This document shows, piece by piece, positions 28,094 to 33,424 of a stretch of DNA of 36,923 nucleotides. The notes under the pieces are model-generated. The model searched no databases. It saw nothing but the letters and a program-made list of their open reading frames with translations, and had not been told where the DNA came from. The position numbers were made by a program, and so were the translations under genes. Origin of the DNA: Candidatus Eremiobacteraceae bacterium (lineage in GTDB: Bacteria; Vulcanimicrobiota; Vulcanimicrobiia; Eremiobacterales; Eremiobacteraceae); contig DATCBN010000094.1 of the NCBI GenBank assembly GCA_036511855.1, forward strand, positions 1-36,923, written 5' to 3'. The stretch's first letter is position 1. Every line of letters starts with the position of its first letter.

Positions 28094-29323
28094 CTATTTC
28101 AGGATGGGAAGCGGGAACTTTTCTTCGTCGAGCTTGATGCCTGCCGCCGCGCGTAGCGTGGCCGCCATGTCCAGCCGCTCCCATGGCAGATCGAGCTCCG
28201 GCCTGCCGAAGTGTCCGTAGACCGCCGTCTGTTTGTAGATGGGCCGGCGCAAGTTCAGCTTTTGTATGATGGCGCCTGGCCGAAGGTCGAAGTGGTCGGC
28301 CACCAGTTGGGCGATGCGCGATTCTTCGATGCGGTTCGTGCCGAAACACTCGACGAATACGGACACCGGCTTCGCGACGCCGATGGCATACGCGACTTGG
28401 ATCTCACAGCGGTCGGCCAATCCTGACGCGACGATGTTCTTGGCCACGTATCGCGCCGCGTATGCGCCGGATCGATCGACTTTGGTGGGATCCTTGCCCG
28501 AAAACGCGCCGCCGCCGTGGCGCGCCATGCCGCCGTACGTGTCGGCGATGATCTTGCGGCCGGTCAATCCGGCATCGCCAAGCGGACCGCCGATGACGAA
28601 GCGCCCGGTAGGGTTGATGAAGATGTTCGTCTTCTCGTCGATCGAGAGATAGCCGTCCACCGCGGGCCGGACGACATGTTTGAGCACGTTGTCGTGGATG
28701 ACGCCGTGGTCGTAGCCGTCTGCATGCTGCGTGGAGACGACCACCGTGTCGATTCGCACCGGTTTGTGGCCATCGTACTCGACCGTGACTTGGGCCTTGC
28801 CGTCGGGCCGCAAGAAATCGACGACTTCATTCTTCCGCGCGGCCGCAAGGGTGTGCGCGATGCGGTGAGCGATCACGATCGGAATCGGCATCAGCTCTTT
28901 GGTCTCGCGGCAAGCGAATCCGAACATCATTCCTTGGTCGCCGGCACCGACGGCGGACATCGCTTCCGAGGAGCCTTCTTTCATCTCCAATGCTTGATCG
29001 ACGCCGAGCGCGATGTCCGATGATTGTTCGTCGATAGAGATCGAGACGCCGCAGGTGTCGGCGTCGAAGCCGAAGCGAGAGTCGGTGTATCCGATCTTGC
29101 GCACCGTGTCGCGGACGATTTGCGGGATGTCGACATAGCACGAGGTGGAGATCTCGCCGGCCACGTGCACCTGGCCGGTGATCACAAACGTCTCGCACGC
29201 CACGCGGCCCTGCGGATCCTTGGCTAACACGGCGTCGAGCACGGCGTCTGAGATCTGATCGGCGATCTTGTCCGGGTGCCCTTCGGTGACGCTCTCCGAT
29301 GTGAACGAACGCTTGTATGCCAT
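28094..29323 (-). CDS. metK: S-adenosylmethionine synthetase MetK
   Basis: The 409-residue product starts [19 protein letters not shown], with GAGGG about nine bases before the ATG. All MAT signatures are present: [28 protein letters not shown] (the GYA/GFA-type loop), and [19 protein letters not shown]. It makes SAM from ATP and methionine. It follows ahcY with a gap of two bases, so SAM production and SAH removal are transcribed together. The protein is slightly longer than the 384-residue E. coli enzyme, in keeping with other deep-branching bacteria. I saw no SAM riboswitch in the short region upstream of ahcY. Confidence 0.97.
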
Positions 29324-29325
29324 TT

Positions 29326-30660
<1,335 letters not shown>

Positions 30661-31795: not shown

Positions 31796-31850
31796 GGGGC
31801 CGACATTTATGGTCGGCCCCGCTTGCCCACGGGGCGAGCGATGCTCGCCC
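31796..31850. repeat. REP-like palindromes, locus C (variant units)
   Basis: Two perfect palindromes follow the stalk-protein gene. The first is GGGGCCGAC (31796-31804), a seven-base loop, GTCGGCCCC (31812-31820). The second is GGGCGAGC (31832-31839), GAT, GCTCGCCC (31843-31850). The second has the same layout as the units at 12834-12883 and 36368-36450, with both stem positions 4 and 5 changed so that pairing is kept. Neither has a T-run. They lie in the leader of fchA and could affect its expression. Confidence 0.75.
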
Positions 31851-31931
31851 GAGTACAGACGAGACAAGACGACAAGGTACACGACGTCCTGCCGCAAAAC
31901 GGCTGGACGTCGTCATTTGGGGAGAAAACAT

Positions 31932-32570
31932 TTGACTCTCGCTTCTATGTCGGTGAGCGAATACGCGCATAGACTCGCATCGGCCGACCCAACGCCCGGC
32001 GGCGGAAGTGCAGCGGCAGCGGTTGGGGCATTCGCCGCCGGTCTTGTTCGCATGGTCGCGCAACTCACATCGAACTCGCCAAAATTCGCCGATGTGGCCG
32101 ATCGCGCGACAATGCTCGGCGCATCGGCTGCGGAGATCGTGGACGAATTCGTGACCTGCATCGACGATGACGTCGTCGCGTTCGACCGCGTGAGTGTAGC
32201 CTACAAGCTCCCGAAGAGCACAGACGAGGAAAAAGGCGCGCGCAGCGCCGCCATACAGCAGGCGCTCGCGGGCGCCGCAGAGCCGCCATTGCGCGTCGTG
32301 GAGCTGGCCCATCGCACATGCGCACTCGCGGCCGAACTCGTGAACTTCGGCAATCCAAGCGCGGTGAGCGACATCGGGTGTGCCGCAGCGTTCGCACAGG
32401 GCGCGGCAAAAGGAGCCGCGCTCAACGTCGAGATCAACGTCAAGACGCTCAAGGACCGGGGTGCGGCCGACGCACTGACTTCGCGCCTGCATGCGGCCAT
32501 GGCTCAAGTGAACGTCCAGTCGGAGGTCGTGCTTGGGAAAGTAAATGCGCTGCTCAAAGGCGGCGCATGA
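31932..32570 (+). CDS. fchA: methenyltetrahydrofolate cyclohydrolase FchA (FTCD-C family)
   Basis: The TTG at 31932 follows GGGGAG by seven bases and gives 212 residues; an ATG 15 bases later is possible. The family motif SADPTPGGGSAAAAVGAFAAGLVRMV is the folate-binding start of the formiminotransferase-cyclodeaminase C-terminal domain. The helical remainder (AIQQALAGAAEPPLRVVELAH, NPSAVSDIGCAAAFAQGA) fits FchA. Stand-alone members with no formiminotransferase domain act as 5,10-methenyl-THF cyclohydrolase in acetogens and methylotrophs. The formimino-THF cyclodeaminase role would need histidine-degradation genes, which are not seen here. It overlaps folD by four bases (ATGA), a strong sign of shared function. 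Confidence 0.9.
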   Translation: MTLASMSVSEYAHRLASADPTPGGGSAAAAVGAFAAGLVRMVAQLTSNSPKFADVADRATMLGASAAEIVDEFVTCIDDDVVAFDRVSVAYKLPKSTDEEKGARSAAIQQALAGAAEPPLRVVELAHRTCALAAELVNFGNPSAVSDIGCAAAFAQGAAKGAALNVEINVKTLKDRGAADALTSRLHAAMAQVNVQSEVVLGKVNALLKGGA

Positions 32571-33424
32571 TGGCGGCGACGCGCCTCGAAGGCCGCCCGC
32601 TCGCGCTGAGAATCCGTGAAGAAGTCAAGCAGCGCGCGGCCGTGCTCCGCGCGCGCGGCATCGCGCCGAAATGCGTCGCGATCGTCGTCGACGGCGACGG
32701 ACCAGGCCTGCTCTACGCCCAGACTGCGCGTCGCATCGGCGCCGATGCCGGCGTGAATATCGAAATCGTTCCGATCGGCGCGTCCGCGGATACCTCAGGT
32801 GCGCTCGCCATCGTCCTACGCATAGTCGACGAGCCCACCGTCCACGGTTTGATCATCCAACGCCCGCTGCCGGCGAAGTTGGACGAACAACGCATCGTCG
32901 AAGCCATCGATCCGGCCAAGGACGTCGACGGCGCTCATCCTTACAATCAAGGTCTGCTCGCGCTTGGAAAGCCGCAGTTCGTGCCGTCGACCGCGAGCGC
33001 GGTGCTGGAAATCTTGAGCCTGCCGCCGACGCCGCCCTTGCGCGGCGCGCGCGTCGCGGTCGTGGGGCGCTCGGCCGTCGTGGGACGGCCCGCCGCTGCA
33101 CTTCTCACCGCGGCGGATGCCACAGTCACTGTTTGCCACTCGCGAACGAAAGATTTAGCCGCCATCACGTTCGCGTCGGATATCGTCGTCTTGGCGGTGG
33201 GTAAGCCCGGATTTCTCACGGGAGATATGGTGGCGCCCGGCGCGATCGTCGTCGATGTGGGCACGACGGTGGTGGACGGCCGGCTCGTCGGCGATGCCGA
33301 TCCCATCAGCGTGTCCGCGGTCGCGGGAGCCCTGACGCCGGTGCCGGGGGGCGTCGGTCCGATAACGACCTCGATCTTGCTTCGAAATATCGTGAGCGCC
33401 GCCGAGGCGCTAAATCAGTCCTGA
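32567..33424 (+). CDS. folD: FolD-family methylene-THF dehydrogenase lacking the cyclohydrolase lysine
   Basis: The 285-residue product starts at the ATG overlapping the fchA stop. It retains the FolD core: IIQRPLP (the Gln of the active site), KDVDGAHPYNQG (the Asp), the Rossmann stretch VVGRSAVVGRPAAALL, TVCHSRT, and PGGVGPITTSILLRN. Y50 is kept in LLYAQTARR, but the position of the catalytic Lys (E. coli K54, YVxxK) is Ala, A54, followed by two Arg. The usual PCTPxG is PSTASA. Mutation of this Lys in characterised enzymes abolishes cyclohydrolase activity while dehydrogenase activity can persist. The likely result is a dehydrogenase-only FolD that hands methenyl-THF to FchA. Whether it uses NADP or NAD is not clear. 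Confidence 0.93.
   Translation: MMAATRLEGRPLALRIREEVKQRAAVLRARGIAPKCVAIVVDGDGPGLLYAQTARRIGADAGVNIEIVPIGASADTSGALAIVLRIVDEPTVHGLIIQRPLPAKLDEQRIVEAIDPAKDVDGAHPYNQGLLALGKPQFVPSTASAVLEILSLPPTPPLRGARVAVVGRSAVVGRPAAALLTAADATVTVCHSRTKDLAAITFASDIVVLAVGKPGFLTGDMVAPGAIVVDVGTTVVDGRLVGDADPISVSAVAGALTPVPGGVGPITTSILLRNIVSAAEALNQS

Follow-up and report, generated by a model that had tools for sequence, protein, structure and literature searches.

The FolD of Clostridium perfringens is reportedly monofunctional, a description attributed to Aluri et al. 2016. Some microorganisms employ a separate FchA, according to the passage of PMC7219735 in which Aluri et al. 2016 (doi 10.1099/mic.0.000209) is cited on C. 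perfringens. Passages of two further articles cite a monofunctional enzyme of P. productus (PMC6443876) and a bifunctional FchA-MtdA enzyme (PMC12844395). In C. autoethanogenum, fhs, fchA and folD bear consecutive locus tags, and M. extorquens uses two enzymes, MtdA and Fch, encoded by neighbouring genes (PMC9618320). The separate dehydrogenase/cyclohydrolase pair is prior art in Clostridium and Methylobacterium.

We analyzed a 36,923-nucleotide stretch of DNA from a Candidatus Eremiobacteraceae bacterium (hereafter the window), in which fchA is followed by folD. As in clostridia and acetogens (C. perfringens, C. autoethanogenum), a separate FchA stands beside a FolD-family dehydrogenase; however, those organisms possess Fhs, whereas Eremiobacteria are mostly without it. 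M. extorquens also divides the steps between two enzymes, and the window FchA is closest to its Fch (7vg4) in both fold and sequence, but the dehydrogenase of M. extorquens is MtdA and the partner in the window is a FolD (PF00763 and PF02882). The bifunctional FolDs of E. coli (1b0a, 5o28) and human MTHFD1 share with the window FolD the domains, the fold, Tyr50, Gln98, Asp121 and the NADP motif, although they have the catalytic Lys54 that the window FolD lacks. Finally, bifunctional FTCD (1tt9) shares with the window FchA the FTCD_C fold and family and the metabolic node. FTCD is a fused protein, whereas the window FchA is unfused and linked to folD rather than to hut, and the formimidoyltransferase is separate in the window genome.

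The fchA-folD pair of the window

The host genome comprises 3.07 Mb in 112 contigs and is 96.4% complete; the window is its contig C94, and Candidatus Eremiobacterota are its closest relatives with a name. It holds the following features.

31932..32570, + strand: fchA, standalone FTCD_C (PF04961) protein of 212 aa (profile search and AlphaFold2 model)
32567..33424, + strand: folD, 285 aa, catalytic Lys54 replaced by A54 (profile search, alignment and AlphaFold2 model)
32567..32570, + strand: ATGA, overlap of the fchA stop and the folD start (overlap or very short gap in 13/13 sampled family members)
32714..32728, + strand: folD codons 50-54, YAQTA, with Tyr50 kept and Lys54 changed to Ala (sequence and alignment)
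32984..33001, + strand: folD codons 140-145, PSTASA in place of PCTPxG (sequence and alignment)
29326..30615, - strand: ahcY, S-adenosylhomocysteine hydrolase, divergent neighbour
28094-29344: metK, beyond ahcY and followed by hemE

The gene coordinates and the ATGA overlap at 32567-32570 given in the original prediction, which was made from the sequence alone, were borne out. The start codon of fchA is TTG 31932, with GGGAG at 31920-31924, 7 nt 5' of the TTG, and its stop codon is TGA 32570; an ATG lies within the gene at 31947. FolD translation starts at ATG 32567 or ATG 32570 and stops at TGA 33424. Translational coupling of fchA and folD through the ATGA overlap is likely. On the upstream side of fchA, the order ahcY, metK, hemE on the opposite strand is kept wherever the flanks of the family members reach that far. 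The SAM-cycle genes metK and ahcY (28094-30615) are divergent from fchA-folD, and folate and SAM one-carbon genes thereby lie side by side. Three strong inverted repeats were observed immediately 5' of fchA (31796-31820, 31832-31850 and 31881-31913); the corresponding region of G073, a genome of the same genus, shows none of them. An Rfam search of the sequence 5' of fchA matched no known RNA, THF riboswitches included, and no sigma-70-like promoter was found near the gene.

FolD residues were counted from ATG 32567. The protein belongs to the FolD family, with matches above the Pfam cut-offs for PF00763 (77.0 bits) and PF02882 (180.5 bits). As had been read from the sequence, it keeps Y50, the active-site Gln and Asp (Q98 and D121) and the Rossmann motif, and carries A54. 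Among the hallmarks of a bifunctional FolD, Tyr50, Asp121, GRSxxVGxP and PGGVGPxT are conserved, with GRSxVVGxP (GRSAVVGRP) and PGGVGPIT intact, and the catalytic Lys of YxxxK is absent. The NCBIfam matches of the protein nevertheless bear a bifunctional name. The AlphaFold2 model (pLDDT 96.5) superimposes on solved FolD structures with a TM of about 0.93; such closeness indicates that the fold is intact and that only the active site is altered. The claim that this Lys is needed for cyclohydrolase activity agrees with E. coli FolD K54N, which has about 19% of the dehydrogenase activity left and undetectable cyclohydrolase (PMC5688156). Judged by its residues, the window FolD is predicted to be a methylene-THF dehydrogenase only. 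The change of PCTPxG to PSTASA at 140-145 was read correctly, but it is not diagnostic. We rejected it as a marker of cyclohydrolase loss since Lys-bearing FolDs vary at this position too, with PATPxG and PATPRA among them. The profile search, a check suggested along with the original prediction, found a single FolD and no second complete folD in the host genome. The other PF02882 match, on contig C30, was rejected as a second folD; it is a different, acyl-ACP-reductase-like Rossmann protein.

Lys54 loss and PF04961 in the class Eremiobacteria

The survey aligned the FolD loci of a sample of the phylum, together with 21 further loci from the class. In this alignment Lys54 was absent from 104/105 class FolDs, its place being taken by Leu (78), Ile (15), Met (6), Ala (4) or Thr (1). 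With non-Lys residues also in 13/13 sampled members of the window's family, we rejected a chance substitution or sequencing error as the source of A54. Every one of the 104 Lys-less FolDs kept Y50 and D121, and 99 kept Q98. The NADP motif GRS..VGxP, H191 and PGGVGP are also conserved in class FolDs, and R or K is usually retained at position 56. The arginine column of GINR (position 235 of the window FolD) holds Arg in 52/65 Lys-bearing FolDs, whereas it is mostly V, L, F, I or M in the class. The conservation of Y50, D121 and the NADP motif without Lys54 suggests that FolD is under selection while the cyclohydrolase residue has been released. The Lys state changes just twice on the FolD tree of 109 rows, on which an independent-pair test has no power. 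Lys54 loss in the class is one ancient, class-wide event.

Other substitutions at the active site were observed as well. FolDs of family f3 (L147, L152, L188 and L276) combine K54L with Q98H. Those of phylum families f12 and f15 (L202, L205, L209, L214, L215 and L221) keep Lys54 together with Q98E and D121E. The latter occur mostly in genomes with PF04961, and their substitutions are perhaps another route to cyclohydrolase loss.

The original prediction had tied Lys loss to an adjacent fchA. The survey upheld the association in part: of the 104 class genomes whose FolD is Lys-less, 97 encode a PF04961 protein, but adjacency is restricted to the window's family, in which fchA lies directly 5' of folD in 13/13 sampled genomes. 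Genome incompleteness by itself would predict 10.3 absences, against the 7 observed, and among the genomes that are at least 90% complete PF04961 is present in 69/70. In the other two class families, the folD flanks of 1.5-2 kb contained no PF04961 gene; the gene lies elsewhere in the genome. Adjacency was rejected as a predictor of Lys loss, since in the class a Lys-less FolD is in most cases encoded away from fchA. A raw Fisher test (p about 1e-16) overstates the association because of the two changes on the tree, and a single ancient loss in the class leaves little independent replication. Outside the class, a Lys-less FolD occurs together with PF04961 in an Atopobiaceae genome (fchA adjacent) and in a Synergistaceae genome, and without PF04961 in genome G020. 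Families f9 and f10, further Lys-less lineages, have PF04961 as well. The association is consistent and rests on few independent events.

PF04961 was undetected in 5/9 sampled genomes of genus g22, including G076, which is 90% complete. In the four g22 genomes with PF04961, G052 and G095 among them, no more than a few kb separate the gene from one end of its contig, and an assembly break is likely behind the absences. In the genus of the window, the 95% complete genome G056 contains neither folD nor PF04961, as expected if the pair fell in one assembly gap.

Two single genomes depart from the class pattern. The sole Lys-bearing FolD in the class is that of G061. On the tree it groups with FolDs from other bacteria, and its gene adjoins fhs; it appears to be a foreign-type replacement, an apparent reversal. 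Genome searches found no PF04961 protein in G061, which retains hutU and the formimidoyltransferase. We also observed that the Lys-bearing folD of G061 lies in a panB-folD-fhs-folD2 block (L229:6594-10988), and that the second FolD-like protein apparently is without both the Tyr and the Lys of YxxxK. G140, with 7% contamination, is without hutU and the formimidoyltransferase, yet PF04961 and a Lys-less FolD are present.

FchA and the demand for 10-formyl-THF

The window FchA matches PF04961 with 191 bits and has the fold of the FTCD_C superfamily. Its only NCBIfam match, NF045657, is nearly full-length and, at 165.4 bits, falls below the equivalog cut-off of 275. The AlphaFold2 model (pLDDT 96.8) has M. 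extorquens FchA (7vg4) as its best match, with a TM of 0.92-0.96 and 37% identity; FTCD 1tt9 and TM1560 1o5h ranked after it. FchA is a standalone protein of 212 aa without the formiminotransferase domain of bifunctional FTCD. It is the sole PF04961 protein in the host genome, and the single FolD thus has its partner in the same genome. In an FTCD_C tree of 54 rows, the class standalone proteins group together and apart from fused FTCD, but the decisive branch point is weakly supported. Genomes G124, G013, G047 and G049 encode a separate standalone FTCD_C protein in addition to a fused or long-frame FTCD. We found no residues in the published literature that distinguish FchA from a cyclodeaminase. 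FchA is predicted to be a methenyl-THF cyclohydrolase and very probably carries out this step.

PurN, PurH and Fmt use 10-formyl-THF. All three are encoded by the host genome, from which Fhs (formate-THF ligase) is absent; in the class, Fhs was found in 3/111 genomes. Given this need and the lack of Fhs, 10-formyl-THF must come from methenyl-THF, and a cyclohydrolase is expected. The host genome also encodes hutH, hutU, hutI and, as a separate gene, a standalone glutamate formimidoyltransferase (TIGR02024, 332.8 bits, cut-off 221). Across the class, hutU is present in 100/111 genomes and the formimidoyltransferase in 101/111. Since histidine degradation needs a formimino-THF cyclodeaminase and FchA is the only FTCD_C protein, we infer that FchA probably serves as this cyclodeaminase as well and fills both roles.

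Proposed roles of the two enzymes and their significance

The best explanation, to which we give a probability of roughly 75%, is a split pair of a dehydrogenase-only FolD and a separate FchA-type cyclohydrolase. FolD, with its folate and NADP sites kept, would interconvert methylene-THF and methenyl-THF by oxidation or reduction, and without Lys54 it would have no useful cyclohydrolase activity. FchA would interconvert methenyl-THF and 10-formyl-THF and so supply PurN, PurH and Fmt. It would probably also deaminate formimino-THF to methenyl-THF, closing histidine degradation. The sequence changes, single copies, class pattern, missing Fhs, Hut and purine genes and folds were observed directly, and from them we infer the activities, the direction of flux and the dual role of FchA. 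The original prediction, that the two steps are divided between the proteins, fits the survey and the presence of only one FolD and only one PF04961 protein. It has to be widened in that the Lys loss is class-wide and FchA is probably a cyclodeaminase too, or conceivably nothing else, and the split itself was already known. We propose more tentatively, at somewhat under even odds, that one FTCD_C enzyme with cyclohydrolase and cyclodeaminase activities allowed the single FolD Lys loss in the class ancestor.

The main rival holds that FchA is solely a formimino-THF cyclodeaminase and that 10-formyl-THF arises from residual FolD activity or spontaneous hydrolysis. Methenyl-THF can hydrolyse spontaneously, and E. 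coli remains viable when its FolD has no cyclohydrolase activity (PMC5688156); a cyclohydrolase role of FchA is thus not compelled. The complete hut set and standalone formimidoyltransferase in the same genome, the prevalence of hutU and the formimidoyltransferase in the class and the score of FchA under the NF045657 cut-off are all in keeping with a cyclodeaminase alone. However, G061 keeps hutU and the formimidoyltransferase and is without PF04961 exactly where FolD has its Lys, and G140 has PF04961 in spite of lacking both Hut markers. The extra standalone FTCD_C proteins beside fused or long-frame FTCD in the four genomes named above, the joining of fchA to folD rather than hut in the window's family, and a cyclohydrolase (7vg4) as the nearest solved structure also argue against this rival, which we consider unlikely. 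That FolD is still bifunctional via another active-site group would be in line with the retention of Q98 and Y50 and the usual R or K at 56, but we regard it as quite improbable: E. coli K54N is without detectable cyclohydrolase, the GINR arginine column indicates that the site has changed further, and no new conserved Lys was found among the listed positions around the site.

A further proposal concerns the cause of the Lys loss and not how the pair works. Lys54 loss may have been selected as resistance to a FolD-targeting product, for example carolacton, a product of a soil myxobacterium, and tolerated through an existing FchA. K54 is lost class-wide, with Q98H in addition in family f3, and the carolacton-resistant mutants of E. 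coli alter the same residues (K54N or Q98H; PMC5688156). However, Q98 is retained in 99/104 Lys-less FolDs, and neutral release after FchA gain fits an ancient, fixed loss equally well; we hold selection by such a product to be highly improbable, the least probable of the proposals considered here.

Under the split-pair reading, what is new here is that Eremiobacteria, most of which have no Fhs, have naturally lost the catalytic Lys throughout the class, with one apparent reversal. New too is an FchA that is likely shared with histidine degradation. FolD is routinely annotated as bifunctional, and metabolic models of the class could therefore err at the main route to 10-formyl-THF. It is predicted that carolacton-type FolD inhibitors, which require K54, would not act on the FolDs of the class. 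With about 100 natural Lys-less FolDs and the reversal in G061, the class offers material for studying how the active site of a bifunctional enzyme comes to be divided between two enzymes.
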